Source of the DNA: Argopecten irradians
Taxonomy: Eukaryota > Mollusca > Bivalvia > Pectinida > Pectinidae
DNA length: 64,000 nt
Direction: 5' to 3'
Assembly (NCBI RefSeq): GCF_041381155.1
Contig: NC_091134.1
Span: forward strand, 14,820,008-14,884,007
Shown in pieces: positions 13,901 through 62,500 of the stretch. A program made the translations under genes and the position numbers. Within the stretch, counting starts at the first letter, position 1; every line of letters begins with the position of its first letter. The notes under the pieces are model-generated. The model had not been told where the DNA came from, ran no database searches, and saw only the letters and a program-made list of their open reading frames with translations.

Positions 13901-16900
13901 AACCACTGTCAGCATAAAAACAAGCAAAGTTAAAGACCATACGACTTTAAAAATGTAACAATATTAGCAATGTTTAAAGATGCTCCATCGCCGACAGAGT
14001 ATGACATTCATAATTTGAACAATAATTGGTGTTTAATCGTGTATATATATGTATATGTCTAATTGACACAAAAAGATAATATAAAATAATTATTTATTTT
14101 GCCTTTGGTGCATGCGCAATCAGTACTTCATTCCATATAGGAAATAGTGCCAAGAAATTTTTTCGGGATCCAATCAATTATTTTGAATATTTTTAAGTAG
14201 AATTAGAAGTTCAAACTTTTCAAAGGTGGTATGGTGTAAAGTAAGTAACGTTTGTAACTGAAGAAAAATACTAAATCGTCTGCTGCTGTTCTTGATAGTG
14301 AGAAAATACATGTACAATTTGTCAGCGGTAGAGCATCTTTAATAAACCAAACGTCCGTGAGAGATTTTTTTCCTGGCTATTACTCGAAAACCGTTCAACA
14401 AATCTGCATCAATATTTCTGTTTATATCAGACAGGTGCCCTAGTTGTGCCTTATGCTATTGCGAACCTTCCATGTTTGATGTTTTTTCTGTTACCATGGA
14501 CACTTACTCAAAATACCAATTTGTTTCCGGACTAAAACTCCAAATCCCTTCAACGAAGCTCCAAGAAACTTTCTATATTTTTTAATTTATTTCTGTTACA
14601 ATGGGAACTCAGTCAAAAACACCAAAATAACTGTTTCATTGTGTTACCTGCTGTTATTTTTTTCAGTTTTACTATACTCACATACATCGACTTGAATAGT
14701 TGTTACTTTGAACACTGTTATTGTATTTATGTTTTTATACCAACTGCGAAGCGCGAGGGGTAATGCCACGCTTTGCAGCTCCTTGTTTTAAATGGGTTTT
14801 TTTAATACAACAAATCCAATTCTTACCAATGTAGGGTCTAACTCTAAAACTTGTTCGAAGTACAAAGGGAGACAAATGGCGAGGCTGATGAATAGAAGAC
14901 CGTAGGTGATGAAACCCAGCACGCATCCCCATACAGCTTTGGACGTAAGCAGCTGTAGCCAGGGGATGTGTAATGACTATCAACAGGAAATAAGAAACAG
15001 TTTATCTATTTAATTTACAGGCTTAGCTTAGGTAATATTGATTTTCGCAAGAATCTCGTTAAATACTTATCATGTCTTCTTTGTCTGAACATAGTATATT
15101 GCTGCGATTAGGTATTAGACCCGTAACATGAAGAATAACTGGCATAAGAATTCAATTGTGTTAATCTGTATTTTATTGCCAATTATAAGGATGGGCTGAA
15201 TAACAATAATATATGCTTTCTTCGTACAAGTTACCAAGAGAAAAGGTATATCGCCATTTTTAAACTCTTCTTTTTACAGATAGTAGTTTTAACCTTTTCA
15301 ATAAATGCTAGATAACGTTTAATTCACGTTAAATGACATGTAATCAACTTCAGGTAACATGTAATTTACGTTAGATAACATGCAATGTACGTTAGATAAA
15401 ATTTATTTTACGTTAGATCACACTTTATACACGATTGATCACATTTATGTTAAGTTATATCACATGTAATATACGTTAGATCACTTTTAATTTACGTTAG
15501 ATAACGTGTAACTTACGTTAAATAAAATGTAATTTACAATAGATAACATGTAATATACGTTAAAAATCATGTAGTTTACGATAGATAACGTGTAATATAC
15601 GTTAAATAACATGTTAGATAACATGTACTTTACGTTAGACAACATGTAATTGACATTAGTTAACGTGTAATTTACGTAAAATAACATGTGATTAACGAGA
15701 GATAACATGTAATTTACGTAAGATAACATGTTAAGTTTTTGCTTTGTGTATCCATTCATTTTTCTTAGTATCACTGTATTATATATTATAAATGTAACCT
15801 ACCTTCTTTTGTTCAACTGAAGGCTTTTGTGAGATAATATATAACCTTTCCGACGCCGTTATACGTGGGTGAATATTTGGAGCATCATATACCATAAAGG
15901 CCCATAATAGTAGTACCAACAAGTTCATTCCGCCTTGTACAAAGAAACATTCAGGTATCAATGACTAATTTTAGGAAAGGCGCCTATTAATTTCCCTCGT
16001 GTCATAGTGCAAACGCATTATGTTTTAACTTTGATAGCATCAGTCAGGTAAGTGGTGATAATTAAATGAAACACCAAAAATGTTTACATTATTCAACCCT
16101 CTTTTTTAACTTTAACATTATCGAAGTCAATGACTTGCCATTCAGGAGTGCGCTCATATCCCTACGTCCCCTTTGTCACGTACATTGTAGGTAAATATAG
16201 ATACTAGTGTTAAAGTAAACAGTTTTTCTTGGCAAGTCAATGTGGAACTATAATTACAACCATTACTAACCGTCAACATACACGATCTCTGTACTTACTG
16301 AAGACAAAGAAAATGAAAGGCCAACCACCGATAGCGGGTATGGAACACAGTAGGCCAGCCAGTATATAGTTAGCCATTCCTCCAACACTTCTAGCTGTAT
16401 GTTAACAATGTAATTATTGCACATACATGCACATTGAAGGTGTGTATTATAGACATGCTTATTTTTAACTAATATTAATAATTCAGTGTTTATACAATCA
16501 ATATACAATACGTACAATTATATTTATAATAAGTTATAATGTTTTTATGACGGAAGACTGCTCTTTCAATGTACACAGCATATAATTTGTGGGGTGTGAT
16601 GCTACTTTGCAATTTCCGTTTTGGTATAGTTTTCATTTATTTTTTTTACACAAAAAACAATCTTTAATACCCCAGACATGTTATAAATCTGAAGGCTACC
16701 AAGGTTGGGGTCTTGGTGTCAAAAATATAAACAAATGTCCCCACACAGGAGGGCTTTCATTCACCATAATACTTACATATATGTAATATAACTCATCACA
16801 TAATCGTCCAATAACATAGACATATATCATAAAAACAATATATCATTATGTTCTTACCTGTTTCCACAAGAACCATCATTTGTGCTCGCTCCTGAAGAGG

Positions 16901-19900
16901 TGCCCAGTTGGAAAGAAGTTGCGTTGCGCATGGCTCAAGACCAGACTGGGAAGAAAAATTATCGGAGAAAAATATGAAACAATCCAAAAATACCAACATG
17001 TCTTCGTTATTTCAAAATTTAATATTGAAAATTATTAATTTAATTCAAAATCAAAATGTTTTGGTGGCTATTCCCCCTGTGATATTCACGCCGTGTATTC
17101 CATTTTAATCAGGGTTGCCTTTACTCTAATTTGCTGTCGCCTATCATCCACAGACTATTGACAGCAATTACAGGTCTAAAGGATGGAAAAATAAATATGA
17201 TTGCATAGGTCAAGTATTATACAAATATTTCATGGGTTACTGTGCTCAAGTTCAGAATATTTACCCGAGGTGGTGGTAATCAACAAACGTTATATTGTAC
17301 GGGGCCGAAGGCCTATTGCAATATAATATTTGTAGATAACCACCACCGAGAGTAAAATAAAATATATTTATATCCTTTGAGCAACAAAGAGTAGCATTTC
17401 TTTACTTTTTGTCATCAATTGGCATTGATGACAAAAAGTAAAGAAATGCTAGTGTGGAGTTTATATTAATTATATTAGTTAATTAATTCGGTCCAGACAC
17501 TAGATGTTCTGAGATTTATTCTTCAAGTTAGAAAAGATGGATTATTTTACGGTAATTTAATATAACTTATATATACATTTTGGCAATTTATGTTATATTG
17601 TTATATCAGAACTGTTATGAATAACCTGCTATTACGTGTACATAGTAAGTTAAGAAATACATGTACCAAATATTTTTTTTTATTTAGTTTTTAAAACATT
17701 TTAAGACAGAAATACTTCACCATTGTTCACATATAGATATAGTTGTGCCAATTTGATAGCAACTTTACAATAAATATGTTTATTTTGAATGATTTTTTAA
17801 ACGGTAATCACTACCATTATAACGTTACACGTGCCCAATTCATGCACATTCTAGTTTTCTAGTTGCAGAAAATCTGCTGCTGAAAACTTCAAGATTTGTT
17901 CCGGCATTCCGATCATCTGTGCGGCACGCACAAGGAAGTTAAACTGAGGGACAGGTGGCACTTTTGTATGAAATATACATGTATGACCAATAGAAAATCC
18001 GTATAGGGAACAACCAACTAAATAAAAAAGACCTTCGAAATGGCCACTGTGTATACAAGATTGAGCCCAGGATAGAATTTTAACCCGGCCGCAGATTGGC
18101 TGGCTAATTATGAATTTCAAAAGTAAAAATGTTTTCTGACAGGTAATTATTCCTAGATAACCATGATATGAATTAGGAAATTCATATCGAGATTTAGGTT
18201 CAAAATATCAATTTTGATATTGAATTGGTAAAAACATTAGAATTTCAGGATTTTTTAATGCAAAATGCGCCTGATTTCAATAAAGCTACCCTGGTTGGAG
18301 TTTGAGCAGAAGGAGACAAACTTTTTTTCTATCTAGTGTTATATGAGAACCTAGACTTATTAATTATAGAACACAATAGCTAACTAATATTCCTTTGTTT
18401 TAATAATACAGTACAAAACTTTAACAAAGCTTAACACTGTGGTCTATGCAAATTATTTAGTTGGTTTCTCTCTATAGGGAACAACCAACTAAATAAAAAA
18501 TGACCTTCGAAATGGCCTCCGTGTATACAAGATTTAGCCCAGGATAGAATTTTAACCCGGACGCTGATTGGCTGGCTAATTATGAATTTCAAAAGTAAAA
18601 ATGTTTTCTGAGAGGTAATTATTCCTAGACAACCATGATAGGAATTGGTAAATTCATATTGAGATTAAGGTTCAAAATATCAATTTTGATAATGAATAGG
18701 TAAAAACATTAGAATTTCAGGATTGTTTAGTGCAAAATGCGCCTGATTTCAATAAAGCTACCCTGGTTGGAGTTTGAGCAGAAGGACCCAAACTTTTTTT
18801 CTATTTAGTGCTATATGAGAACCTAGACTTTAATCATAGAACACAATAGCTAACTAATATTTCTTTGTTTTAATAATACAGTACAAAACACAGTTTAACA
18901 CTGTGGTCTATGTAAAATTATTTAGTTGGTTGCTCTCTGTACTGTCACCGGATGTATTTATGCGTCATACCTACCGTTGCCATGCCGACAATAATTCGTA
19001 GAGCGAGGACAATGTACTCGCTGACGAAGACGAATCCCGGTGTGATTGCAGTAGACAAAGATATAATCAACACCATAGTAGCAATAATGTACTTTCCGCT
19101 GTATCGTCCAGACATAGACCCCAGCGTCAGGGCTGTTGCCACCTGGCCAATGTAGTTCCCAGAAATTAGCAGACCTTTCATGGTACTGTCCCACTCAACA
19201 TAATACTTCTGTTAAAGTAGAGAATCGATACCTCTATTAAGTAATTCCAGTGAAAAATGGATTGTTTATCAATGAGATGTTTTCGCCGTTTTCGTTGCTT
19301 TAGTTTTGCATTTTGTTTATTTGTCTTTTAATTTTTTTGGGGAAGTGCATTGTCTCCAAAACATAATCAAACGATATAATCAGAAAATATCAAAAATGTA
19401 GTCATGAAATCAACCAATTATGCTCGATTTAAAATACAAAAATTCAATGTATAATAATCGTATTGAAAGTCATTAAATTTTGTTGAACGAAATTTAAATG
19501 TATGCTTGAAAGTACGATTTTGTACAGTCAGTTGATTTGGTCATCAATATGTATTGGAAATGCCCGTTCTATTCTTGACCTGTATTATGCTAGATCTGTC
19601 GTCCTGAATATGTTTATTATTAATTTGAAATGATTATTTCCAAAGTCTAGATGCTTTACTCCAAACATACATTCACTTTAGTCAAAAACCTCCAATTAAC
19701 TTCGTCACTGAATTCTTTTGACCTTTAATCCTTACCATATAGTCATCCAAAACTGTAACGTTTGAGCCGTTGATGACAACAGTTGACGTCATGTTTGGAG
19801 GGTTCATACACACCACGACCATACTCATGTTCATACGTATCAACATGGTGCATGCCAGGGTCAAGCACGTGACGTAGCCGACTTGCCATCTGCATGACGT

Positions 19901-22012
19901 CAGACGCTCCTTCAGTGTTACTTTGTGCTTTTTAGTAACAATCAGACGGATATTTTCTGTGATATAAATACTTAATTTCAAAATAAATGAATATCCTTTC
20001 GTTTCATCTAACTCTTAGAAACAACTATTTATCATGCCGTATGCTCACATAAAAGGATATATTTACAAAAGCTGCAGTCACCCAAAACACATCGCATACA
20101 AGAGGCCCAGAGGGCCTGTATCGCTCACCTGGTTTGTAATGTCAAGTCATGTTCTGAATACAGGTTCATTGTTTCTTTTCTGAAGGAATTTGAATATTTG
20201 CCTCTTATTTCCCTATTTGGCCCCGCCCCTCCTGCCCCCGGGGGGTCAGAGCCAAAATTTTTACAAGTTCTGTTCCCCTTCCCCCAAGGATGTTTGTGGC
20301 CAAATTTGGTTACAATCCATGCATAACTCTAGGACAAGTAGTGATTTATAGGATTTACCTTTATTTCCCCTATTGGGTCCCGCCCCTCCTGCCCCCCCCC
20401 CCCCCGGGGGGGGAGGGGTCCGAACCAAAATTTATACAAGTTCTGTTCCCCTTCCGCCAAGGATATTTGTGGCCAAATTTGGTTACAATCCATGCAGAAC
20501 TCTAGGACAAGTAGCGATTTATAGGATTTACCTCTATTTCCCCTATTTGGCCCCGCCCCTCCTACCCCTGGGAAGTCAGAACCAAAATTTATACAAGTTC
20601 TGTTCCCCTTCCCCCAAAGATGTATGTGGCCAAATTTGGTTACAATCCATGCAGAACTCTAGGACAAGTAGCGATTAACAGAATTTACCTCTATTTCCCC
20701 TATTAGGCCCCGCCCCTCCTGCTCCCGGGGGGTCAGAGCCAAAATTTATACAAGTTCTGTTCCCCTTCCCCCAAGGATGTTTGTGGCCAAAATTGGTTAC
20801 AATCCATGAAGAACTCTAGGACAAGTAGCGATTTACAGAATTTACCTCTATTTCCCCTATTAGGCCCCGCCTTTCTGCCCCCGGGGGGTCAGAGCCAAAA
20901 TTTATACAAGTTCTGTTCCCCTTCCCCCAAGGATGTTTGTGGCCAAATTTGGTTACAATCCATGCAGAACTCTAGGACAAGTAGCGATTTTACAGGAATT
21001 TACCTCTATTTCCCCTATTAGGCCCCGCCCCTCCTGCCCCCGGGGGGTCAGAGCCAAAATTTAAACAAGTTCTGTTCCCCTTCCCCCAAGGATGTTTGTG
21101 GCCAAATTTGGTTACAATCCATGCAGAACTCTAGGACAAGTAGCGATTTATAGGATTTACCTCTATTTCCCCTATTGGACCCCGCCCCTCCTGCCCCGGG
21201 GGGAGGTCAGGGTCACCATTTATGCAAAATCTGTTCCCCTTCCCCTAAGGAAGTTTCTGACCAAATTTTGTTAAAATCCATGCAGTACTTTATGACAAGT
21301 AGCGATTTAAAGGAAATGTTGACGGACGGACGGACGGACGACGGACGCCGCGCCATGACATAAGCCCACCGGCCCTTTGGGCCAGGTGAGCTAACAAGGA
21401 CAATACCGTTAAATGGTATTTGACATTTTAAAAATGGACCTCACATGTACATGCATAAATTTAAAAAAATAATGAGTTTGACCTTTAATCGAGGTTACAT
21501 ATGTCAGATAATGTCTTCGAATGCAGATTTTCAATTGCTTCGATACGATACGTTATGTTCAAATATTTACACGTGAATGACTCTTACCTTTGCGCATGTT
21601 CGCACAGTTCAAATATATTCATAACAGTACATTATTTTGATAACCAAGATCCCATTGAACTGATAACATGTTGGTTAAAAATAATATAGGTAACAATACG
21701 TTAGATAGTTTTCTATATAAGAGGTGAAACGCATGGGCAAACTGATCAGGGTTTATTAAGCATGCAAATGATAGTTTGGGGATTATACGAGGAGAAAAAT
21801 TATAACAGGTAACGGCTAAGGCTAATGGCCTCATGTAAAACATATGATACAATGTATTACACAATTTTGACTTCATTTCTGCAACTTAAAATATTAACAT
21901 TTATTTTGATTAAACAATCAGCAATAGGTTATGGAACATGATCTTTAGTGCGATACTTTATATTTTCTTGGGGAATAGAAGGAATTATGAACTTACCGGT
22001 ATCATTTGACAT
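10962..22012 (-). CDS. SLC17-family anion transporter, complete gene B (11 exons, 513 aa)
   Basis: Exons in transcript order: 22012-21997, 19956-19736, 19208-18975, 16945-16858, 16394-16299, 15933-15803, 14976-14827, 13070-12938, 11892-11742, 11581-11491 and 11192-10962. All borders are GT/AG, the phases match, and 1542 bases make 513 residues plus TAA, the normal SLC17 length. The tiny first exon gives MSNDT and joins ENIRL. Marks: Arg46 in helix 1 (IRMNMSMVVV); luminal glycosylation sequons N60, N68 and N71; Arg150 in helix 4; the SGLEPCATQLLSNWAPLQER block at 158-177 (family GxxxPAxxxxWxxWAPxxER); GGWPFIFFVF; IPWLQLL before helix 7; FRVNFADIAPRYAG; GEEQEWAKEH. The C-terminus ESTPLIDNR fits an acidic dileucine sorting signal. 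Both helix-4 glutamates of sialin are replaced (V153 and T157). B is head to head with C, about 1 kb apart. The substrate is unknown; the model rests on sequence alone. Confidence 0.92.
11951..12093. mobile_element. Small hairpin MITE in an intron of gene B
   Basis: ATTCCTTGTTTCTTGATGAA near 11952 is mirrored by TTCATCGAAGAAACAAGGAAT ending near 12092. The inner parts (ATTTCATCGAGTGAGGTAGAAAC and GTTTCCACTTCACGAGATGAAAT) also pair, so nearly the whole 140 bases folds back. Non-coding. Confidence 0.75.
12094..12937. other. Intron 8 of gene B, no further feature
   Basis: Contains a near-palindromic stretch with repeated ATGACGTCATT-like words around 12225-12280, possibly a decayed element, and otherwise plain AT-rich intron. 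No exon was recognised. Confidence 0.35.
13974..14342. mobile_element. TTAA-bounded MITE (TTAAAGATGCTC family)
   Basis: Begins TTAAAGATGCTCCATCGCCG and ends CAGCGGTAGAGCATCTTTAA, so short terminal inverted repeats start at a TTAA on each side, as in piggyBac-type elements. The left edge of the 13.4-kb duplication (14176) falls inside it: the second copy has only the right half (47520-47687). A left half of the same family is at 61834 in gene C'. Confidence 0.7.
15290..15740. repeat. Minisatellite, period about 21 bases
   Basis: About twenty imperfect units of TTTACGTTAGATAACATGTAA lie in intron 6 of gene B, ending about 60 bases before exon 6. On the minus strand it gives a chance open frame of repeated NYMLSNV-type peptides, which is not a gene. 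The matching array in the other copy is at 48635-49075. Confidence 0.85.
17255..17360. repeat. Foldback repeat in intron 3 of gene B
   Basis: TTACCCGAGGTGGTGGTAAT near 17260 is mirrored by TAACCACCACCGAGAGTAA near 17338, and the inner segments ATATTGTA and CAATATAAT also pair. The second copy has it at about 50595-50695. Confidence 0.65.
17392..17451. repeat. Perfect 28-base-arm palindrome present only in copy S1
   Basis: The left arm 17392-17419 is the exact reverse complement of the right arm 17424-17451, with a four-base loop TGGC. The matching site in S2 (near 50721-50757) has only the right arm. This is the signature of a template-switch mutation or of arm loss. Confidence 0.9.
17856..17965 (-). 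other. Unidentified coding-like fragment
   Basis: On the minus strand an open stretch ends FSAADFLQLEN and a stop, preceded by FNFLVRAAQMIGMPEQIL. It looks like a protein end but I do not recognise the family. It sits in intron 3 of gene B beside the MITE pair and is repeated with small changes at about 51172-51262. It may be an exon relic carried by a repeat, or chance. Confidence 0.25.
18002..18475 (+). mobile_element. MITE of the CAACCAACTAAATAA family, unit 1
   Basis: Begins TATAGGGAACAACCAACTAA and ends TTATTTAGTTGGTTTCTCTC. The terminal inverted repeats are about 20 bases, with TA at the edges. The next unit starts at the shared TA. Same family as 6030-6342, but longer. Confidence 0.8.
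18474..18941 (+). mobile_element. MITE of the CAACCAACTAAATAA family, unit 2
   Basis: Head-to-tail neighbour of the preceding unit. It begins TATAGGGAACAACCAAC and ends TTAGTTGGTTGCTCTCTGTA. The two units are very similar, so the second arose by tandem copying or by insertion into the edge of the first. They end 34 bases before exon 3 of gene B. Confidence 0.8.
20099..21393 (+). mobile_element. Minisatellite-cored non-autonomous element (Helitron/pearl-like candidate)
   Basis: The left edge is CAAGAGGCCCAGAGGGCCTG followed by TATCGCTCACCTG. The core is about seven units of roughly 160 bases with the words CCCCGCCCCTCCTGCCCC, AAGTTCTGTTCCCCTTCC and GGATGTTTGTGGCC. The right edge is a GACGGACG run, then GGCCCTTTGGGCC, AGGTGAG and CTAA. 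A short hairpin followed by CTAA fits a Helitron 3' end (CTRR rule), but I see no clear TC 5' end. Frames in it are chance. It lies in intron 1 of gene B. Confidence 0.65.
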
Positions 22013-22659
22013 CGTGTTATAGACTTTGATTTCAACCCGAAATAAAATAATTTATGCATAGACACTCAATAGGTAAACGAACTTGAATAGGGCATGCCAC
22101 GGCATAGGAATATTTACAAAACAAAACTGAGAATATAACCTCGATGTGTATGATTTTATTATCGAATTTGTGAAATTAGATAATTAAGAAAATTTACAAA
22201 CACAATGAAGAAATATCCAAGAGATATTAATTGTTCACCTAAATCTAATTGGTCTATGTCACAATTTCTTCTACACCAACCTAAACAGTTAAAGAGACCC
22301 TCTTATGATATTTGTTGTTTTATATTTTCCTCATAACGTAAGCTGTGTCCACGGGGATACGAGTACAATTTTGTGAAATGGAAAAATACCACGGTCAGGG
22401 AGATATATATTTCGTACAGAAACGCGTTATGATGAAGTTTGAAATAATTAATTTAGTCGGTATTTACAACTCGGTCTCATGACGATTTGATGGTCTCTGT
22501 CATAAATGTTCAACATGGTCAACGTCAATGCACAAGGCTTGTAATACGATTACAAAATGAAAAATAAAGTTACCGCCTATGTCATATTCTTCGATCAGAA
22601 ATGAGGTAGGAATGTTTATGACAATGCTGTACTGCGATACCAGTATGCTCACATAGATA

Positions 22660-22800
22660 ATGACGTAGTTCGTACTGTAGCATGTCTTTTGCGCACTACT
22701 TGTTCATAGTGCTATCTCAGTGAAGCATGCCACCTGAGACAACAAACAGCATACCCGACTCGGTGGTATTATACTGACAGCGGGCGAACCAGTCGTCCCA
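22660..22800 (+). repeat. Fragment of a dispersed SINE-like repeat
   Basis: Words ATAGTGCTATCTCAGTGAAGCATGCC, ACAACAAACAGCATACCCG and ACCAGTCGTCCCACT are shared with about 3555-3640, 26540-26630 (reverse), 37272-37430 (reverse) and 40195-40245. It is a widespread family with no coding capacity. Confidence 0.6.
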
Positions 22801-23028
22801 CTGAAAATATAGACTATAGTGATTGTCAGCTAGATGTGTGATTGTGGTGTAAAAGGACATGTGCTATTAGTAAACTCAAAGTTTGAAAGTGAAATCAATC
22901 CTTTAGACAAACATAAATTATAAAGTGTTTGACAATCATTTACTACGTATTTCCCCACTGAATGGCGCGTGTTGATACATAAATCACCGGTGTCATGTTT
23001 CATAAAGAGATATTTGCATCTCATTACA

Positions 23029-23046
23029 ATGGCCGACAACAGCTGA
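23029..23046 (+). promoter_or_regulatory. Five-codon upstream ORF before gene C
   Basis: ATGGCCGACAACAGCTGA encodes MADNS and stops two bases before the ATG of gene C. Both duplicate copies keep it (second copy at 56505-56522). If transcribed, it could lower translation of C or feed reinitiation. That is an inference from position. Confidence 0.35.
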
Positions 23047-23173
23047 TAATGACACTGGAATCTTTAGGTGAGTTCGCCTTGACTTTAAAAATTGGTTGTG
23101 CAGTATTTAGACAATTTTAATACAAACCCTTTGTATAGTATCATTTTCAGTGATTTACTGGGATATTTACAGG

Positions 23174-24220
23174 TTAAGGTAGCTCCATACTTTTGGTAAA
23201 ACCCATGTCATTTTTTTCGAATAGGTCTTATTTTCTTGCATTTTCATGTAGATTTCAAATCTGTATAGAAAAATGGGTATTCTCGAACTACTTTTTGAGA
23301 TATTTGAGCTTGAAATATACCATCCGTACAAATTTGCTAGCCGCAAAAAGAAAAATTCATGAAAATATGTTTTCCGTATTATTAGGGTGAATATAGTCTC
23401 AATCCTGTTGATTTTTTGTCTTTAATTTCTTACGATAAAACAATATACAAGACTATTGTATTTTTACAAATGCTAACTAATATTCTTTATATCCGAGGAC
23501 CTTTTCTTTACGTAATTATCATGTTTTGCCACGCTTTCGCCCCTAAAAAACAATGAATAGGCCAAAAAGAAATGAAAACCCATGTCAATTTCACAATATT
23601 TGTATATGATATGCCCAAGGTAATATATTTTACAAGTATCATATAAAAACATGGGGTCCTCGATCAAATTTTCACAATTTTGTAAGCTTAAAGTTTGTAA
23701 CTCACAACCCTACCCCCATTTCATCCAGGGCTAAGATTGGTCATATTTGGCTATTTTTTTTTAAAATCTTGCCACAAAAAAGCATTCTACATCAATTCTT
23801 ATTCTATCTAGTTAATGTCTGTTTATTTTATGATTTTCTCCAAATTTTGCGTTTTAAGGAAATCCGTAGGTTTTTTTTAGAATTCCGGAATTTCAGTCCG
23901 GGTGGGTCCCCTCTTATCATTTATTGCGACGAACATTATTTCCGGTGTTTGAAAGTCCATTCCCATTTATGACAGGGACCGCAAAAACCTCAGAGATAGC
24001 ATGTTATATTCACTTCATTACTTTTATTTGATTTATTTAATGATTTCAAACATTCAGTATTATATGTAGACAATTTTCAATTTTCACCTATAGAAAAAAA
24101 TATCCAAGTGGAATGTCGTAGCGTATCGGAAACCATTTTGGAATTCAAAACAACCGCGGCAGCTTCCGGTTTAGCGTCATATGAATTGGCGCGGTTGTCA
24201 AAAGTATGGACCTACCTTAA
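23174..24220. mobile_element. TTAA-bounded 1.05-kb element in intron 1 of gene C
   Basis: Begins TTAAGGTAGCTCCATACTTTTG and ends CAAAAGTATGGACCTACCTTAA, so the termini are about 22-base inverted repeats that include TTAA. This fits a piggyBac-type non-autonomous element. No transposase is recognised inside; the short frames are not conserved products. The second copy is at 56656-57714. Confidence 0.78.
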
Positions 24221-26527
24221 AGTAGTATGATTGATTAGATCTATGTCATTAATTGACATAATATATTTTTGTTCTAGACCTACTGTATCGTACATTTTAA
24301 TCACATTCTAATATTAAGGCTTATCTGTTGAAAACTTTAAAAAAGAAACGATTGATCAATGGTATGATTGAGGACTCTAAAAGTCATAACCGGTACGTAC
24401 GACCATTTCGTAATAGAAGATTAAAAGCTCAGAATGATTTTTGTACAATAGCTGAAACAGAATAGTTACCCTTTAGCTTTGTATCCAATTAAAACTCAAT
24501 ACAGAAATTCCATTCAGATTCTTTCGCTCTGTAAATATTTTTGTCTGCATATTAACAAAAAAGATAGGGCTACTCACAATCAGGCTCCTCTGGAAGAACG
24601 CTTTCATTACCATTAAAACTGTTTGACGTCTTAATCGTGTACTTCTAGCGAAGCCTTCAAAATTAAAAATATCATCGATTAGAAATATGAGTTTTGCTAG
24701 TAATATTACTTTCCACTTCAATCGAAGTATATTCCGAATTGGTTGAGGGTCAATTTCAAAGAATTTATCACGCCGTTTTTATCAGCAACCCGATATTGAC
24801 GTCACAAATGGCGACGTTTTGAAATGATAGAATATAATTTGAACCATTGGAAAACCTTTCCTTTCAGAGGAAACTCCTCTTTTGGAGGAAAAGAAAAAGG
24901 ATGGCTACAAATTTAGCCTGTGGGAGAAGTACACGTCCTGTCGCTGGCAGGTAGGGGCAACTGCGGCCTTCACCATGTCCTGTTCCATACTTTTGAGACT
25001 AAACATGACGATGGTGGTAGTCTGTATGGCGCCTGGGAACCTTACAGTCACCGTCGTACAAAATGGCTCAGAATTCTCCATACGTGATCCATATCTGGTG
25101 CGTATTTTTTGTATGCGTCCACCTTATTCTCTAGCACTTCTCTTATTTAGTAACATTGTGCTCCGTAAGTGTTTAATAAGATTAGTGCAAATATCAATAT
25201 TTCAAGAATAGAATAATTACTTTGTCAGTACAATGTGACTGAACGGTATATTGTGTTAACATGTTTTGCTGTACACTGTGCTGAACCAAAAAGGGTAAAA
25301 TACACAGCTTGAAAACCATACATCCAAGGAGACACAACCTGAATATACCGCAGACTCCAAAAACATACAGACATTCAATCACTGCAGCAAAATGCACACA
25401 TGGAAGGCTTGTAGGCTTCATTAATGTCCGGCTGTTCATTGGAGGTTAAACCTTATACACAAAACATAAACAACATACAGAAAAACCGATGCACCAAAGG
25501 TTGTTCATAAATAAGTTTAGTTTCTAATCAATTCACCCCTGAAATTTGATAATGGGCTGTCCCAGGTCTTGAAGTAGAAAAGTCAAAATGTGTTTTTAGG
25601 GGGTGGGTGATAATATAACTATATTACTTATCCGTTCTAACATTATCTTTGTGTTGCAGGATAACTATGTGTATTGGGACAGCACCATGGAAGGACTCTT
25701 GATATCTGGGTACTATTTCGGGCAGGTCTTCACCTCCCTGATCTTTGGCACGTTATCAGGACGAGTCAGCTCTAAGAACTTCATCCTCTTCCTGACCTCT
25801 GTCCTCATCATCACATCCTGTGTGACCCCAGCCATAACCTTTGTCGACCCCTATCTTGTCCTAGCAGCACGGATTGTCATTGGCATAGCAACCGTGAGTG
25901 TCGTAGTGTCAACATGGACTCGACAAATATCAATGCAATGTATATATAATTGTGTATTATATGCTGTGTACAAATAGAGATACATGTTATGTATTTGTTG
26001 AACATTAGCTAATAGTTTTCATATATGAATATGATCTAATTTTAGTTTTATACAATATTTTGTTACATTTGAACGCTAAAATTCAAACGAGTGCTGTGAA
26101 AAAGGTCTTTTGGGTAGTCATCATCGATATTTACTTTTTTTGTTTTATTTTGCATAGAGATACCTTAATGTTAATTTGAAAAATGAAACCAATAACACGT
26201 CTGAGACCATTTTTTGAGCAACCATTTTCACCAGTCCGAGTAATGGAGTAACCTTTCTTCTTTAATCATGAAACAATACAGAACAGCCTGTTGGATTGAA
26301 GATGTCTTTCAAGTATCAAATAATGAAATATTAATACTATGTTTTAAGAGAAATATTTTCCAGTTTCTAAAAAATGAAATTTGGTTATATATTTACTGTA
26401 ATATGAAATTTCTTGCATTAGGCACGCCAGAAATATTGAGATAAGATGTAATATGTACAAATCAGTGCAAACATACGTACATAAATGTAGTTAAATTGCT
26501 GTCCATTGATATATACCGCCAGTAATA

Positions 26528-26960
26528 TTTATTTTGAGCAAGGTGTGCTGTGGGCTGTCTTTGGTGGCATGCTTCATTGATATATCACTATAAAAAGGTC
26601 AACAGTCATGTACTAAATTACCATATACTATATTATTATTGGAATTTAAAAACCGCACAACTAAAGCCTCTTTTTTAAATTATTTGACCGTAATGTTAGG
26701 CATAAGTATATATCGTATACTTTGTCAGTGACGCGGCGGAAACGTTGAATATCCAAACGCTTGACCAGATGGCCATTCATAGCCTCATATATCCCATCTG
26801 GTTTAAATTAAACGGTAAACTGAAAGTAGAATGGCAATATATAACAGATTAACAGCAGCCTCCCAAAACAATGCATGCGATAAAGGCCGTCGTTTAATTA
26901 CAATAACTGTTATGTCGCTAAGGTAATCAGTCAACCCAGATATAAACCATCATTTAAAAT
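26528..26960 (-). repeat. Dispersed SINE-like repeat in intron 3 of gene C
   Basis: The reverse complement carries TTTATAGTGATATATCAATGAAGCATGCC and, after an interrupting stretch, GGGAGGCTG and GGCCGTC words shared with the family at 37272-37520 and 40030-40245. Only pieces are intact. Confidence 0.5.
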
Positions 26961-46479: not shown

Positions 46480-46528
<49 letters not shown>

Positions 46529-48634: not shown

Positions 48635-49075
48635 CTTTTCAATAAATGCTAGATAACGTTTAATTCACGTTAAATGACATGTAACCAACTTCAGGTAACA
48701 TGTAATTTACGTTAGATAACATGCAATATACGTTAGATAAAATTTATTTTACGTTAGATCACACTTTATACACGATTGATCACATTTATGTTAAGTTATA
48801 TCACATGTAATATACGTTAGATCACTTTTAATTTACGTTAGATACCGTGTAACTTACGTTAAATAAAATGTAATTTACAATAGATAACATGATATATACG
48901 TTAAATACCATGTAGTTTACGATAGATAACGTGTAATATACGTTAAATAACATGTTAGATAACATGTACTTTACGTTAGACAACATGTAATTGACATTAG
49001 TTAACGTGTAATTTACGTAAAATAACATGTGATTAACGAGAGATAACATGTAATTTACGTAAGATAACATGTTAA
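48635..49075. repeat. Minisatellite, period about 21 bases (copy 2)
   Basis: Counterpart of 15290-15740, with a few substitutions and nearly the same length, so this array has changed little since duplication. Confidence 0.85.
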
Positions 49076-51314: not shown

Positions 51315-52261
51315 TATAGGGAACAACCAACTAAATAAAAAAGACCTTCGAAATGGACACTGTGTATACAAGATTGAGCCCAGGATAGAATTTTAACCCG
51401 GCCGCAGATTGACTGGCTAATTATGAATTTCAAAAGTAAAAATGTTGTTTTCTGACAGGAAATTATTCCTAGATAACCATGATATGAATTTGGAAATTCA
51501 TATTGAGATTTAGGTTCAAAATATCAATTTTGATATTGAATAGGTAAAAACATTAGAATTTCAGGATTTTTTAGTGCAAAAATGGCGCCTGATTTCAATA
51601 AAGCTACCCTGGTTGGAGTTTGAGCAGAAGGAGACAAACTTTTTTTTCTAGCTTGTGTTATATGAGAACCTAGACTTTAATTATAGAACACAATAGCTAA
51701 CTAATATTCCTTTGTTTAATAATATAGTACAAAACTTTAACAAAGTTTAACACTGTGGTCTATGCAAAATTATTTAGTTGGTTGCTCTCTATAGGGAACA
51801 ACCAACTAAATAAAAAAAAGACCTTCGAAATGGCCTCTGTGTATACAAGATTTAGCCCAGGATAGAATTTTAACCCCGGCCGCTGACTGGCTGGCTAATT
51901 ATGAATTTCAAAAGTAAAAAATGTTTTCTGACAGGTAATTATTCCTAGACAACCATGATATGAATTTGGAAATTCATATTGAGATTAAGGTTCAAAATAT
52001 CAATTTTGATAATGAATAGGTAAAAACATTAGAATTTCAGGATTTTTTAGTGCAAAATGCGCCTGATTTCAATAAAGCTACCCTGGTTGGAGTTTGAGCA
52101 GAAGGACCCAAACTTTTTTTCTATTTAGTGTTATATGAGAACCTAGACTTTAATCATAGAACACAATAGCTAACTAATATTACTTTGTTTTAATAATACA
52201 GTACAAAACACAGTTTAACACTGTGATCTATGTAAAATTATTTAGTTGGTTGCTCTCTATA
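51315..52261 (+). mobile_element. Tandem pair of CAACCAACTAAATAA MITEs (copy 2)
   Basis: Same two head-to-tail units as 18002-18941, meeting at the TA near 51790-51792. Termini and order are kept, so the pair existed before the duplication. Confidence 0.82.
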
Positions 52262-53425
52262 CTGTCACCGGATGTATTTATGCGTCATACATACCGTTGC
52301 CATGCCGACAATAATTCGTAGAGCGAGGACAATGTACTCGCTGACGAAGACGAATCCCGGTGTGATTGCAGTAGACAAAGATATAATCAACACCATAGTA
52401 GCAATAATGTACTTTCCGCTGTATCGTCCAGACATAGACCCCAGCGTCAGGGCTGTTGTCACCTGGCCAATGTAGTTCCCAGAAATTAGCAGACCTTCCA
52501 TGGTACTGTCCCACTCAACATAATACTTCTGTTAAAGTAGGGAATTAACACCTCTATCAAGCAATACCAGTGAAAAATGGATTGTTTATCAATGAGTTGT
52601 TTTCACCGTTTTCGTTGCTTTAGTTTTGCATTTTGTTTATTTGTGTTTTAATTTTTTTGAGGAAGTGCATTGTCTCCAAAACATAATCAAACGATATTAT
52701 CAGAAAATATCAAAAATGTAGTAGTGAAATCAACCAATTATGCTCAATTTAAAATACAAAAATTCAATGTGCAATAATCGTATTGAAAGTCTTTAAATTT
52801 TGTTGGAACGAAATTTAAATGTATGCTTGAAAGTACGATTTTATACATTCAGTTGATTTGGTCTTTAACATCTATTGGAAATGCCCGTTTTATTCTTGAC
52901 CTGTATTTTTTGCTAGATCTGTCGTCCTGAATATGTTTAATAACGATTTGAAATGATTATTTCCTAAGTCTAGATGCTTCTACTCCAAACATACATTCAC
53001 TTTAGTCAAAAACCTTAAATTAACTTCGTCACTGAATTCTTTTGACCTTTAATCCTTACCATATAGTCATCCAAAACTGTAACGTTTTGAGCGTTGATGA
53101 CAACAGTTTGACGTCATGTTTGGAGGGTTCATACACACCACGACCATACTCATGTTCATACGTATCAACATGGTGCATGCCAGGGTCAAGCACGTGACGT
53201 AGCCGACTTGCCATCTGCATGACGTCAGACGCTCCTTCAGTGTTACTTTGTGCTTTTTAGTAACAATCAGACGGATATTTTCTGTAAGATAAATACTTAA
53301 TTTCAAAATAAATGAATATCCTTTCGTTTCATCTAATTCTTAGAAACAAAACTATTTATCATGCCGTATGCTCACATAAAAGGATATATTTACAAAAGCT
53401 GCCATCACCCAAAACACATCGCATA

Positions 53426-54863
53426 CAAGAGGCCCAGAGGGCCTGTATCGCTCACCTGGTTTGTAATGTCAAGTCATGTTCTGAATACAGGTTCATTGTT
53501 TCTTTTCTGAAGGAATTTGAATATTTACCTTTTATTTCCCTATTTGGCCCCGCGGGGGTCAGAACCAAAATTTATACAAGTTCTGTTCCCCTTCCCCTAA
53601 GGATGTTTGTGGCCAAATTTGGTTACAATCCATGCATAACTCTAGGACAAGTAGTGATTTATGGATTTACCTTTATTTCCCCAATTGGGCCCCGCCCCTC
53701 CTGCCCCCGGGGGTCTGAACCAAAATTTATACAAGTTCTGTTCCCCTTCCCCCAAGGATGTTTGTGGCCAAATTTGGTTACAATCCATGCATAACTCTAG
53801 GACAAGTAGTGATTTACAGAATTTACCTCTATTTCCCCTATTAGGCCCCGCCCCTCCTGCCCCCCGGGGGGTCAGAGCCAAAATTTATACAAGTTCTGTT
53901 CCCCTTCCCCAAGGATGTTTTGGCCCAAGGATGTTTGTGGCCAAATTTGGTTACAATCCATGTATAACTCCAGAAAAAGTAGCGATTTATAGGATTTACC
54001 TCTATTACCCCTAATGGACCCCGACCCTCTGCCCCCGGGGGGTCAGAGCCAAATTTTTTACAAGTTCTGTTCCCCTTCCCCCAAGGATGTTTGTGGCCAA
54101 ATTTGGTTACAATCCATGCATAACTCTAGGGCAAGTAGTGATTTTATAGGATTTACCTTTATTTCCCTATTGGGCCCCGCCTCTCCTGCCCCCGGGGGGT
54201 CCGAACCAAAATTTTTACTACAAGTTCTGTTCCCCTTCCCCTAAGGATGTTTGTGGCCAAATTTGGTAACAATCCATGTATAACTCTAGGACAAGTAGCG
54301 ATTTATAGGATTTACCTCTATTACCCCTATTGGACCCCGACCCTCTTGCCCCCAGGGGGTCAGAGCCAAAATTTTTACAAGTTCTGTTCCCCTTCCCCCA
54401 AGGATGTTTGTGGCCAAATTTGGTTACAATCCATGCAGAACTCTAGGACAAGTAGCGATTTATAGGATTTACCTCTATTTCCCCTATTGGCCCCCGCCCC
54501 TCCTGCCCCGGGGGGAGGTCAGGGTCACCATTCATGCAAAATCTGTTCCCCTTCCCCCAAGGATATGTTTGACCAAATTTGGTTAAAATTCATGAAGTAC
54601 TTAATGACTAGTAGTGATTTAAAGGAATTATCTCTATTTTCCCTATTGGGCCCAGCCCCTCCTGCCCCAAGGGGGTCAGGGTCACCATTTATGCAAAATC
54701 TGATTCCCTTCCCCTAAGGAAGTTTTCTGACCAAATTTTGTTAAAATCCATGCAGTACTTTATGACAAGTAGCGATTTAAAGGAAATGTTGACGGACGGA
54801 CGACGGACGGACGGACGACGCGCCATGACATAAGCCCACCGGCCCTTCGGGCCAGGTGAGCTA
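53426..54863 (+). mobile_element. Minisatellite-cored element (copy 2)
   Basis: Same edges as 20099-21393, including GGCCCTTCGGGCC, AGGTGAG and CTAA. It has about eight core units against seven and a different order of unit variants, one with a short internal duplication near 53912-53940. The array has been changing since the duplication. Confidence 0.68.
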
Positions 54864-55460
54864 ACAAGGACAATACCGTTAAATGGTATTTGACATTTAA
54901 ATGGACCTCACATGTGCATGTATAAATTTAAAAAATAATGACCTTGACCTTTAATCGAGGTTAAATATGTCAGATAATGTCTTCGAATGCAGATTTTCAA
55001 TTGCTTCAATATGATACGTTATGTTCAATATTTACACGTGAATGATCTTTACCTTTGCGCATGTTCGCACAGTTCAAATATATTCATAACAGTACATTAT
55101 TTTGATAACCAAGATCCCTATTGAACTGATAACATGTTGGTTGAAAATAATATAGGTAATAATAATAGCTAGGTTTTTCTATATAGAGGTGATAGTCTTT
55201 CTATAACGCATGATAGTTGGGGATTATACGAGGAGAAAAATTATAACAGGTAACGGTTAAGGCTAATGGCCTCATGTAAAACACATGATACAATGTATTA
55301 CACAATTTTGACTTCATTTCTGCAACTTAAAATATAGCACAGCGACATTAATTTTGATTAAACAATCAGCAATGGGTTATGGAACATGATCTTTAGTGTG
55401 ATACTTTACATTTTCTTGGAGAATAGAAGGAATTATGAACTTACCGGTATCATTTGACAT

Positions 55461-56524
55461 CGTGTTATAGACTTTGATTTCAACCCGAAATAAAATAATT
55501 TATGCATAGACACTCAATAGGTAAACGAACTTGAATAGGGCATGCCACGGCATAGGAATATTTACAAAACAAAACTGAGAATATAACCTCGATGTGTATG
55601 ATTTTATTATCGAATTTGTGAAATTAGATAATTAAGAAAATTTACAAACACAATGAAGAATATCCAAGAGATATTAATTGTTCACATAAATCTAATTGGT
55701 CTATGTCACAATTTCTTCTACACCAACCTAAACAGTTAAAGAGACCCTCTTATGATATTTGTTGTTTTATATTTTCCTCATAACGTAAGCTGTGTCCACG
55801 GGGATACGAGCACAATTTTGTGAAATGGAAAAATACCACGGTCAGGGAGATATATATTTCGTACAGAAACGCGTTATGATGAAGTTTGAAATATTTAATT
55901 TAGTCGGTATTTACAACTCGGTCTCATGACGATTTGATGGTCTCTGTCATAAATGTTCAACATGGTCAACGTCAATGCACAAGGCTTGTAATACGATTAC
56001 AAAATGAAAAATAAAGTTACCGCCTATGTCATATTCTTCGATCAGAAACGAGGTAGGAATGTTTATGACAATGCTGTACTGCGATACCAGTATGCTCACA
56101 TAGATAATAACGTAGTTCGTACTGTAGCATGTCTTTTGCGCACTACTTGTTCATAGTGCTATCTCAGTGAAGCATGCCACCTGAGACAACAAACAGCATA
56201 CCCGACTCGGTGGTATTATACTGACAGCGGGCGAACCAGTCGTCCCACTCTTTTCATGGTGAGTATTAAGCAGAAACAGAAAATATAGACTATAGTGATT
56301 GTCAGCTAGATGTGTGATTGTGGTGTAAAAGGACATGTGCTATTAGTAAACTCAAAGTTTGAAAGTGAAATCAATCCTTTAGACAAACATAAATTATAAA
56401 GTGTTTGACAATCATTTACTACGTATTTCCCCACTGAATGGCGCGTGTTGATACATAAATCACCGGTGTCATGTTTCATAAAGAGATATTTGCATCTCAT
56501 TACAATGGCCGACAACAGCTGATA
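55461..56524. promoter_or_regulatory. Shared upstream region of B' and C' (copy 2)
   Basis: Counterpart of 22013-23048. It differs by an insert of about 30 bases near 56250-56280 (TTTTCATGGTGAGTATTAAG) next to the dispersed-repeat fragment, and by scattered substitutions. It should drive the intact gene C'. Confidence 0.4.
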
Positions 56525-59500
56525 ATGACACTGGAATCTTTAGGTGAGTTCGCCTTGACTTTAAAAATTGGTTGTGCAGTATTTAGACAATGACAATTTT
56601 AATACAAACCCTTTGTATAGTATCATTTTCAGTGATTTACTGGGATATTTACAGGTTAAGGTAGCTCCATACTTTTGGTAAAACCCATGTCATTTTTTTC
56701 GAATAGGTCTTATTTTCTTGCATTTTCATGTAGATTTCAAATCTGTATAGAAAAATGGGGTATTCTCGAACTACTTTTTGAGATATTTGAGCTTGAAATA
56801 TACCATCCGTACAAATTTGCTAGCCGCAAAAAGAAAAATTCATGAAAATATGTTTTCCGTATTATTAGGGTGAATATAGTCTCAATCCTGTTGATTTTTT
56901 GTCCTTTAATTTCTTACGATAAAACAATATACAAGACTATTGTATTTTTACAAATGCTAACTAATATTCTTTATTTCCGAGGACCTTTTCTTTACGTAAT
57001 TATCATGTTTTGCCACGCTTTCGCCCCTAAAAAACAATGAATAGGCCAAAAAAGAAATGAAAACCCATGTCAATTTCACAATATTTGTATATGATATGCC
57101 CAAGGTAATATATTTTACAAGTATCATATAAAAACATGGGGTCCTCGATCAAATTTTCACAATTTTGTAAGCTTAAAGTTTGTAACTCACAACCCTACCC
57201 CCATTTCATCCAGGGCTAAGATTGGTCATATTTGGCTATTTTTTTTTTAAATCTTGCCACAAAAAAGCATTCTACATCAATTCATATGTTTTTGTCATAT
57301 TCTATCTGGTTAATGTCTGTTTATTTTATGATTTTCTCCAAATTTTGCGTTTTAAGGAAATCCGTAGGCGTTTTTTTTTAGAATTCCGGAATTTCAGTCC
57401 GGGTGGGTCCCCTCTTATCATTTATTGCGACGAACGTTATTTCCGGTGTTTGAAAGTCCATTCCCATTTATGACAGGGACCGCAAAAACCTCAGAGATAG
57501 CATGTTATATTCACTTCATTACTTTTATTTGATTTATTTAATGATTTCAAACATTCAGTATTATATGTAGACAATTTTCACCTATAGAAAAAAATATCCA
57601 AGTGGAATGTCGTAGCGTATCGGAAACCATTTTGGAATTCAAAACAACCGCGGCAGCTTCCGGTTTAGCGTCATATGAATTGGCGCGGTTGTCAAAAGTA
57701 TGGACCTACCTTAAAGTAGTATGATTGATTAGATCTATGTCATTAATTGCCATAATATATTTTTGTTCTAGACCTACTGTATCGTGCATTTTAATCACAT
57801 TCTAATATTAAGGCTTATCTGTTGAAAACTTTAAAAAAGAAACGATTGATCAATGGTATGATTGAGGACTCTAAAAGTCATAACCGGTACGTACGACCAT
57901 TTCGTAATAGAAGATTAAAAGCTCAGAATGATTTTTGTACAATAGCTGAAACAGAATAGTTACCCTTTAGCTTTGTATCCAATTAAAACTCAATACAGAA
58001 ATTCCATTCAGATTCTTTCGCTCTGTAAATATTTTTGTCTGCATATTAACAAAAAAGATAGGACTACTCACAATCAGGCTCCTCTGGAAGAACGCTTTCA
58101 TTACCATTGAAACTGTTTGAGACGTCTTATTCGTGTACTTCTAGCGAAGCCTTCAAAATTAAAAATATCATCGATTAGAAATATGAGTTTTGCTAGTAAT
58201 ATTACTTTCCACTTCAATCGAAGTATGATATTCCGAATTGGTTGAGGTTCAATTTCAAAGAATTTATCACGCCGTGTTATCAGCAACCCGATATTGACGT
58301 CACAAATGGCGACATTTTGAAATGATAGAATATAATTTAAACCATTGAAAAACCTTTCCTTTCAGAGGAAACTCCTCTTTTGGAGGAAAAGAAAAAGGAT
58401 GACTACAAATTTAGCCTGTGGGAGAAGTACACGTCCTGTCGCTGGCAGGTAGGGGCAACTGCGGCCTTCACCATGTCCTGTTCCATACTTTTGAGACTAA
58501 ACATGACGATGGTGGTAGTCTGTATGGCGCCTGGGAACCTTACAGTCACCGTCGTACAAAATGGCTCAGAATTCTCCATACGTGATCCATATCTGGTGCG
58601 TATTTTTTGTATGCGTCCACCTTATTCTCTAGCACTTCTCTTATTTAGTAACATTGTGCTCCGTAAGTGTTTAATAAGATTAGTGCAAATATCAATATTT
58701 CAAGAATAGAATAATTACTTTGTCAGTACAATGTGACTGAACGGTATATTGTGTTAACATGTTTTGCTGTACACTGTGCTGAACCAAAAAGGGTAAAATA
58801 CACAGCTTGAAAACCATACATCCAAGGAGACACAACCTGAATATACCGCAGACTCCAAAAACATACAGACATTCAATCACTGCAGCAAAATGCACACATG
58901 GAAGGCTTGTAGGCTTCATTAATGTCCGGCTGTTCATTGGAGGTTAAACCTTATACACAAAACATAAACAACATACAGAAAAACCGATGCACCAAAGGTT
59001 GTTCATAAATAAGTTTAGTTTCTAATCAATTCACCCCTGAAATTTGATAATGGGCTGTCCCAGGTCTTGAAGTAGAAGAGTCAAAATGTGTTTTTAGGGG
59101 GTGGGTGATAATATAACTATATTACTTATCCGTTCTAACATTATCTTTGTGTTGCAGGATAACTATGTGTATTGGGACAGCACCATGGAAGGACTCTTGA
59201 TATCTGGGTACTATTTCGGGCAGGTCTTCACCTCCCTGATCTTTGGCACGTTATCAGGACGAGTCAGCTCTAAGAACTTCATCCTCTTCCTGACCTCGGT
59301 CCTCATCATCACATCCTGTGTGACCCCAGCCATAACCTTTGTCGACCCCTATCTTGTCCTAGCAGCACGGATTGTCATTGGCATAGCAACCGTGAGTGTC
59401 GTAGTGTCAACATGGACTCGACAAATATCAATGCAATGTATATATAATTGTGCATTATATGCTGTGTACAAATAGAGATACATGTTATGTATTTGTTAAA

Positions 59501-62500
59501 CATTAGCTAATAGTTTTCATATATGAATATGATCTAATTTTAGTTTTATACAATATTTTGTTACATTTGAACGCTAAAATTCAAACGAGTGCTGTGAAAA
59601 AGGTCTTTTGGGTAGTCATCATCGATATTTACTTTTTTTGTTTTATTTTGCATAGAGATACCTTAATGTTAATTTGAAAAATGAAACCAATAACACGTCT
59701 GAGACCATTTTTTGAGCAACCATTTTCACCAGTCCGAGTAATGGAGTAACCTGGCTTCTTTAATCATGAAACAATACAGAACAGCCTGTTGGATTGAAGA
59801 TGTCTTTCAAGTATCAAATAATGAAATATTAATACTATGTTTTAAGAGAAATATTTTCCAGTTTCTAAAAAATGAAATTTGGTTATATATTTACTGTAAT
59901 ATGAAATTTCTTGCATTAGGCACGCCAGAAATATTGAGACAAGATGTAATATGTACAAATCAGTGCAAACATACGTACATAAATGTAGTTAAATTGCTGT
60001 CCATTGATATATACCGCCAGTAATATTTATTTTGGGCAAGATGTGCTGTGTGGTGTATTTGGTGGCATGCTTCATTGATATATCACTATAAAAAAGGCAA
60101 CAGTCATGTACTAAATAACCATATACTATATTATTATTGGAATTTAAAAACCGCACAACTAAAGCCTCTTTTTAAATTATTTGACCGTTATGTTAGGCAT
60201 AAGTATATATCGTATACTTTGTCAGTGACGCGGCGGAAACGTTGAATATCCAAACGCTTGACCAGATGGCCATTCATAGCCTAATATATCCCATCTGGTT
60301 TAAATTAAACGGTAAACTGAAAGTAGAATGGCAATATAACAGATTAACAGCAGCCTCCCAAAATATACAGACATTCACAAACGTAACGCAATGCATGCGA
60401 TAAAGGCCGTCCTTTAATTACAATAACTGTTATGTCGCTAAGGTAATCAGTCAACCAAGATATAAACCATCATTTAAAATGATTTATATCAGTTAAATCT
60501 AACATAATTTATTGTGTTTCAGGGGGGTTTGGAGCCATGTGGCACACAGCTACTGTCAAATTGGGCTCCCCTTCCCGAGAGATCCCAGATGATGTCGATT
60601 ACCGAGCAAGGTAACTACAAGATTGGTTTTGTTAGTTTAACGTCCGATTAAAAGCTAGGGATAAAAACAAGTATTTTACCGAAAAATTAACTGTTATATT
60701 TTCTGCCTCAATTACCAAAAACTGAGTACAAATATATTTATCATGGTAACAACATTAACATAAGTCACACTAGAATGCAAGGTTTTATGTTCACAATATG
60801 GTACATTGTTCCGTTAAAATAATACATATTTATTGTGAAAAATAGAACCTGTATTAATAGGATGCACACTGTAAAACATCAAATAAATTAGAATGTGTTC
60901 TAAATTCCCCGGTGCTTTTAGTAAAGATTTACCTGGCAATCATCCGGGGACGTATAGACACATAGGATGTTTTTTCACAAGCACATGTGCGAGTTTTATT
61001 TTTGTCTATTTTTAGATAATCATTTTTGTCGAAATTGAAAATTTGAACAAAACTTAATGAAGATATCATCATAAGCAATATTTATGATAAGTTCGTATAA
61101 ATTTAATTATACCGTCAAAAACATAATGGGACTTTACAACATGGCTTTAATTGTCTTGTAGAATTTTATTTTGTATCAGGTTTTCGTTTTAGAGTTGAAA
61201 CATGAGTAATATGCATTGCTTAGTTTTAATCCAAATAATAGGCAGATTAAATATTGAATTCTCACTCAAGTAAGAATACTGCAGGTAAACATGTTTGATA
61301 TAAATTGCTTTGTATCAGAACACAAACTATTCAAAAGAAATAGAAATATCCACTTAAACCTCAGTCCCCAGAAGGTGTCAACATTTTTAATCATTAACCC
61401 CAATGAATGCTACAAAATTTATCGGACAAATATTAGCGATAGCTTAATATCAGAGAAGATGTTATAGCAAAACGTACCCCCTATCCTTGAAAAACCTTTC
61501 AGAAAGCGATGAATATTCAATTGGACATGACGACTAAGAATAAGTTATTGTTCATCAACTATATTTAATGTGCATTGTTTTCGTTAGCCAACAGCCTTGG
61601 TGGGATGGTGAATTTTCTGCTGTCCGGATTTATCTGTAACATACCAGTTCTTGGAGGATGGCCTTTCATATTTTATATATATAGTGAGTACAGTTGTCTA
61701 CCATATCTTCATCTCGTCGTTTTTGCTTAGCCAGAGACTTATCATGTCGAGTTTACATTCAGGTATGAATATAATTTTTTTTTGTTACATATTCAATTTT
61801 GTCTCAATAGTTCGGAGCTTTTTGCCATATATCTTAAAGATGCTCCACCACCGACAGAGCATAAACGATATTCATAATTTGAACAAAGTGTTTAATCGAG
61901 AATATATTTTTCTAATGATCTATTTCACAATTATAATGATTCGAATAATAATTCCGGTAAATAAGCCTATTGTTAATGCATGGGTACTATACCATAGTGC
62001 TGGGGAAATGATAATATATTCTACTATATTTAAAAAAAAAGAATAAAAACGAAAAAGACCTGTACAAAAGTCAACTTAGATTACATATTTAAATGTAAAA
62101 AAAATACATATACATATTAAAATTTTATCAGTTCGCCTACGCCTTTTCACAGATCTGTGTATTTTCGGTTTCTTCAGTAAAAACTAATTGGTTAACCAAA
62201 GCAACTTTTCAAACAAAATGCATATGGTTTGTTATATGAAAATATATCTTGCTTAAAACTTCAATGTCTTTTGATATAAAGTGATGTATCCAAATGTATG
62301 TTCTTCACGAAGTGGCTTTCTTGAACACATCCTTTAATTTTGTAAACTGAAAACTAAACAATTCTACTTTGCAATATTTAATTATTTATTTCCATATAAA
62401 CTCGAAAATGGGAAATTGATAGAGACGATTTAACTTCACTAGTAAAAGTACAAGCCAATATCAATAGATTCAAATACACTTATTGCTAAGCTTCATACCA

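Follow-up and report, generated by a model that had tools for sequence, protein, structure and literature searches.

The stretch of DNA analysed here, referred to below as the window, comprises 64,000 nucleotides of Argopecten irradians (NCBI RefSeq assembly GCF_041381155.1, contig NC_091134.1, positions 14820008-14884007, contig C1 below), and a further 40 kb was read on either side of it (144 kb in total, with no ambiguous bases, N). The window carries two direct copies, S1 and S2, of a segment S that spans parts of two neighbouring predicted transporter genes, B and C, arranged head to head. The copies are separated by a 20-kb spacer made up of a damaged element with a TTAA target, a 10-kb segment that resembles part of another contig (C2), and an ISL2EU transposon whose left end is about 52 bp short. 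Both inner edges of S, those facing the spacer, match transposon termini to the base, and each time the other copy of S has the target uninterrupted.

An earlier note on this DNA, made from its letters alone, had described S1 and S2 as direct repeats, and self-BLAST of the window bore this out with edges within 4 bases of those given there. The window contains a single long direct repeat, recovered as three overlapping pieces. In a global alignment of the two copies, a check that the note had proposed, 317 of 13,287 aligned bases are mismatched (2.39%); without the minisatellite stretches 15290-15735, 18000-18940 and 20190-21400 the figure is 194 of 10,727 (1.81%, about 0.9% per side). The largest indel (158 bases) falls within a minisatellite. 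The divergence is patchy, ranging from 0 to 6.4% per 500-base window clear of the minisatellites, and over 43 windows of 250 bases it gave a chi-square of 279 where the maximum in 10,000 binomial simulations was 92. Such patchiness is expected of alleles. When bases 22850-27590 (4,741 bases) were searched against the assembly (846 Mb, 1508 contigs), with the best 40 of 2,638 candidates scored, two matches were full-length, the other 39 of the 41 were confined to an internal dispersed repeat, and no third copy appeared beyond that repeat.

Several repeats were observed within S. Between B and C lies a minisatellite with a GC-richer unit of 157 bp (20196-21314 and 53548-54784), whose copy number differs between S1 and S2 and whose related units form long arrays elsewhere, for example on contig C4 at about 52.10-52.12 Mb. 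The same intergenic region holds a dispersed repeat of about 1.05 kb (23175-24222, with a counterpart in S2) that matches at least 39 places other than S1 and S2, at 71-92%. A scan of the window with Rfam gave no match at gathering score, and none was obtained when the assembly was searched for COX1.

At its right end S1 finishes with TTAA, and there begins AGTGAATAGTCGGGCAA, the left terminus of the TTAA-target element, a terminus that TTAA precedes in five of five other copies examined. The same TTAA stands uninterrupted in S2, within an intron of the right-hand copy of C (C'). S2, for its part, starts directly after the right terminus of ISL2EU, GGAAGGG(G)TGAAT; all four other copies examined end alike, the window copy having one extra G. 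At the corresponding place S1 reads A/AT/C at 14172-14175 (slashes set off the target dinucleotide), uninterrupted and inside a dispersed repeat of about 370 bp. This repeat is cut at the left edge of S2, which holds only its S-side part (from 47516).

In PMC4482050 the ISL2EU group is described as making AT duplications in A/AT/T targets and as carrying two proteins, one with DDE/HTH/THAP and one with YqaJ. The window copy retains the right half of such a target, AT/T, the left half having gone with the left end. In other copies AT follows the right terminus four times out of four, with T next in three of them, and A/AT precedes the left terminus in all three left ends read, one of which came from an internally deleted end. 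Among other local copies of the 370-bp repeat aligned across the site, the base after AT is T in three of four and C in one, a poor alignment. T is thus probably the original base and the C of S1 a later change, and an A/AT/T target would probably have existed here before ISL2EU inserted. The earlier note had placed S inside an original B-C pair, and this agrees with what we find: native gene sequence continues past the outer edges of S, its inner edges are derived, and the 370-bp repeat is unbroken at the left edge of S1. It had also treated the ends of S as duplication breakpoints; given the transposon termini and the uninterrupted targets opposite them, the inner edges are, on this sequence, not demonstrated to be such breakpoints.

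The two transposons of the spacer have close relatives elsewhere in the assembly. The first kilobase of the TTAA element matches 39 other places at 98-99% (best 40 of 1,455 candidates scored; the five copies examined at the edge are included), and the two full copies that were read, both on contig C2, measure about 3.5 kb with TTAA at each end. No open frame of at least 100 aa was found inside 27592-30597, so that the element looks non-autonomous, and no family search was made on it; from its target we take it to be piggyBac-like. Private substitutions of the window copy number 10 in 2,444 complete columns (0.41%) among seven copies of the TTAA element and 3 in 4,296 (0.07%) among four copies of ISL2EU, and two ISL2EU copies elsewhere differ from that of the window at just 4 of 4,965 and 4 of 4,966 aligned bases.

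One other copy of the intervening 10-kb segment was found, on contig C2 (best 40 candidates scored per search). Compared in 500-base windows, 19 of 21 differ by 0.4-4.8%, and the other two, rich in repeats, reach 6.4 and 13.9%. The segment adjoins the TTAA element both in the window and on C2, and a 26-base remnant from the far end of the element lies inside it at 30651-30676. No minority columns are exclusive to the TTAA elements of the window and of C2, against 18 for those of C2 and a further copy, L019; element and flank need not have travelled together. The segment also contains, in both its copies, a TG-rich, strand-biased array of 19-bp units (34175-35290 in the window, with a GC skew of 0.5 over 34001-36000). 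The abnormal joins visible in the locus both sit inside the spacer, one at about 30.6 kb and one at position 40,768; a 24-base string spanning the latter occurs once in the assembly.

The mutually similar open frames of the 144 kb make up four genes, arranged A(+) B(-) C(+) D(-); compared by exon, they are mostly 40-70% alike. A fragment of C' (410 residues) matches the sialin structure 8dwi (E 1.9e-34) and the vesicular glutamate transporters VGLUT2 and VGLUT3 (E 3e-24 to 2e-23), which places it in the SLC17 family; with TIGR00894, a model of eukaryotic phosphate cotransporters, it scores 203 bits (E 7.3e-60) where the curated cut-off is 626. Genes A-D are predicted sialin-like (SLC17) transporters, A, B and D being placed solely via their likeness to C. 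A search of the assembly with 401 residues of C' (exons 1-8) returned 43 matches, 38 of them inside the cluster and the remaining five weak (E 2.3e-5 to 7.9e-4, 26-37% identity). Between A and B we also observed reverse-transcriptase-like open frames (7341-7696), of which 7341-7598 matches PF00078 at E 3e-4, under the curated cut-off.

The truncation pattern that had been noted earlier was recovered. B has nine GT-AG exons in a single open frame and a terminal exon reaching a stop; the left copy of C keeps three of ten mapped coding exons, every one open; the right copy of B (B') keeps six of ten; and C' has all ten, which joined give 487 residues and a stop. A start exon upstream of the first mapped exon is required, yet it was not located for any copy of B or C. 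With this exon included B' has kept seven exons and lost four, as had been stated, and C has 11 exons where 12 had been counted. The first mapped exon of B' measures 222 nt against 221, which shifts the frame, and the mapped part then meets a stop at its codon 71. The truncated inner copies may still be transcribed, as the earlier note proposed, but B' in its present state could not make the transporter. Exon 9 of C' is likewise 92 nt against 91 in B and D, and exon 10 is shifted two more times. Forty residues, between ...FANSL and FVVMASAEEQEW, are in consequence out of the ancestral frame, to which the end of the protein returns. By the helix positions of the SLC17 family, they would lie around the last membrane helices. 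The shifts may be real, or they may be base errors in the assembly. We considered C' as a pseudogene because its frame is broken in exons 9 and 10 and rejected this, the spliced exons forming one open frame to the stop. Among the two copies each of B and C, B alone reads normally across all mapped exons. The statement that the outer gene of each copy alone is complete holds for B; C' is open, but part of it has left the ancestral frame. Coordinates are collected in Table 1.

Table 1. Features of the duplicated locus and its spacer. Positions are counted from the window start, and on from it beyond 64000.
Feature	Position	Strand	Remarks
S1, left copy of segment S	14172-27591	+	self-BLAST, global alignment
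S2, right copy of S, direct orientation	47516-61106	+	self-BLAST, global alignment
S1/S2 self-BLAST pieces	14172-21315 = 47516-54627; 20196-22802 = 53665-56249; 22800-27591 = 56276-61106		
TTAA target at S1 right edge, filled, left half	27588-27591		
TTAA in S2, uninterrupted counterpart	61103-61106		intron of C'
AT target duplication of ISL2EU, right half	47517-47518		S2 left edge
AT in S1, uninterrupted counterpart of ISL2EU site	14173-14174		
Dispersed repeat, ~370 bp	13973-14342		unbroken through S1 left edge
TTAA-target element	27592-30597	+	left terminus intact; last ~0.5 kb with right terminus missing
10-kb segment like contig C2	30598-40768	+	other copy on contig C2, ~9,579,820-9,588,990
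Abnormal join, 10-kb segment to ISL2EU	40768		at most 1 base shared
ISL2EU transposon	40768-47516		right terminus present; ~52 bp of left end missing
ISL2EU HTH and DDE_Tnp_4	43404-44243	-	HTH_Tnp_4, PF13613, E 3.8e-16; PF13359, E 1.4e-10
ISL2EU YqaJ	44307-44825	+	PF09588, E 1.7e-12
ISL2EU THAP	47124-47360	-	PF05485, E 3.1e-05
Gene B, whole over mapped coding exons	10962-19956	-	splice-consistent model
Gene B exons 1-5	19736-19956, 18975-19208, 16858-16945, 16299-16394, 15803-15933	-	
Gene B exons 6-10	14827-14976, 12938-13070, 11742-11892, 11491-11581, ~10962-11192	-	
Truncated left copy of gene C (copy 1), mapped coding exons 1-3	24868-25097, 25660-25893, 27003-27090	+	
Gene B', truncated, mapped exons 1-6	48168-53281	-	
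Gene C' in window	58366-64000	+	mapped exons 1-5 (to 63115)
Gene C' exons 6-10	beyond window, to 71,940	+	end at C1 position 14,891,947
Gene C' exons 9-10	~70323-70414 and 71777-71940	+	length changed at three places

To place the elements in time we set their divergence against that of S per side, of which it amounts to about one half for the TTAA element and about one thirteenth for ISL2EU. By this measure ISL2EU is clearly younger than the split between S1 and S2. As it abuts S2, the present layout is not older than the ISL2EU insertion. Young elements beside an older S, together with transposon termini at both edges and the decay of B', could be accounted for by an older event that duplicated the entire B-C pair in tandem, after which the two elements inserted in the inner copies and one deletion between them removed the 3' halves of C copy 1 and B'. 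This would, however, require one additional event, and its outer breakpoints would have had to vanish without trace: self-BLAST of the 144 kb (E 1e-10) revealed no spacer repeat linking to the 3' part of B or of C', dispersed repeats excepted (e.g. 40047-40178 with 71568-71708). We regard such a history as unlikely.

The reading that we tentatively prefer, while giving it somewhat less than an even chance, is that S1 and S2 represent diverged versions of one B-C locus, each with a different insertion, which were joined through the spacer by unequal exchange. The two versions would most likely be haplotypes, an allelic status that we infer. Version one would have carried, within an intron of C, the TTAA element adjoined by the 10-kb segment, and version two ISL2EU in an intron of B, and unequal exchange would have joined them via transposon material. 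The simplest route would be homologous crossing-over between near-identical direct copies of ISL2EU, which needs a copy on the C side that we suppose to have been there; alternatively, ends may have been joined at 40,768. A joining of this kind yields a repeat lying exactly between the two insertion sites, with B on the left, C on the right and the cut copies facing the spacer. Copies of elements are found at the edges of S, as element-mediated unequal exchange requires. In favour of this reading are the transposon termini at both inner edges, the uninterrupted target in the opposite copy, the low private divergence of the two elements against that of S, and the patchiness along S. We further consider it possible, with more reserve, that the locus is a very young fusion of two haplotypes with fresh insertions in different genes, its 1.8% divergence being old allelic variation frozen in tandem. 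If this were true the locus would look old by sequence divergence though it is recent.

We likewise infer that the exchange happened in the animal itself rather than in the assembler. There may instead be one B-C pair per haplotype, one with the insertion in C and the other with ISL2EU in B, and the assembler may have switched haplotype inside the roughly 6.7 kb of ISL2EU, leaving out the 3' half of C in one haplotype and that of B in the other. Such a switch predicts the layout seen, with outer genes whole and inner genes cut at the insertion sites; the difference between S1 and S2 is within the size possible for haplotypes, and the near-identity of ISL2EU copies suits it too. PMC9516828 names false duplications from divergent haplotypes as a main source of false gene gains. 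The sequence is matched equally well by unequal exchange via ISL2EU copies and by this switch, which is a serious rival to the model of the earlier note, discussed below. We nevertheless hold the switch to be rather unlikely: there is no N across the 144 kb, a second set of C' exons 1-8 outside the cluster was not found among the matches in the assembly, and reads longer than about 7 kb would span ISL2EU.

Several points weigh against the reading of two versions joined by exchange. Gene conversion between old paralogs could likewise give patchy divergence; the allelic status of S1 and S2 is judged from one assembly sequence; and the exchange presupposes a second ISL2EU copy on the side of C. 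The TTAA element looks younger than the S1/S2 split too, though more weakly, the difference being only about two-fold. The early stop in B' would mean that its source version already had a broken B, while a long-lived spare copy decays naturally. Finally, the right and left ends of S share AATTAT where a plain tandem join is predicted, and the left edge of S2 differs from that join at 1 of 26 bases, the best match in the assembly. These last two points, and the TTAA found on both sides of the spacer, speak for the model of the earlier note, in which S alone was duplicated in tandem within the pair and the 20-kb spacer arrived at the junction later. That model requires, however, two different elements to have landed within a few bases of the junction, and the T that makes the edge of S2 junction-like is also the commoner native base of the 370-bp repeat. 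The AT target duplication of ISL2EU fits the native repeat and not the predicted junction. A search for the plain junction gave seven matches with one or two mismatches (the left edge of S2, that of S1 and five elsewhere) and none without mismatch anywhere in the assembly; this search favours copies with T at the base in question, and the site was polarised by the copies of the 370-bp repeat instead. We consider the model improbable. Like an older duplication of the whole pair, it is less economical than the exchange between two versions that we prefer.

The age of a duplicate is normally inferred from its divergence; here the copies may differ as alleles do and have been duplicated recently, or the duplication may exist in the assembly only. 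Looking for element termini at the edges of one copy and an uninterrupted site in the other is a cheap test that can be applied to other genomes.

Of the systems with which the locus can be compared, the ISL2EU group of the PHIS superfamily, as given in PMC4482050, shares with the window copy the HTH, DDE_Tnp_4, THAP and YqaJ domains and the AT at the right end; unlike it, the window copy has lost about 52 bp on the left, where it abuts another segment. False heterotype duplication, as PMC9516828 describes it, is similar in its allele-like divergence, in having both versions in one assembly and in its broken inner copies, and dissimilar in that no gap or N marks the joints here and that these lie at and within transposons. 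The C' fragment scores below the curated cut-off of TIGR00894 and is partly out of the ancestral frame near its C-terminus, but resembles SLC17 (sialin) proteins in matching both sialin chains and that model. Unequal crossing-over between copies of a transposable element (non-allelic homologous recombination) yields tandem duplication. The locus departs from this scheme in having two unrelated elements at its edges, which calls for a bridge (a second, presumed ISL2EU, or end joining), and in the 10-kb segment in its spacer; it conforms in presenting a direct repeat between two element positions, with element material where the copies are joined, and in having intact outer and cut inner genes. 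The locus is an element-bounded duplication, a kind already known, or else an assembly switch.

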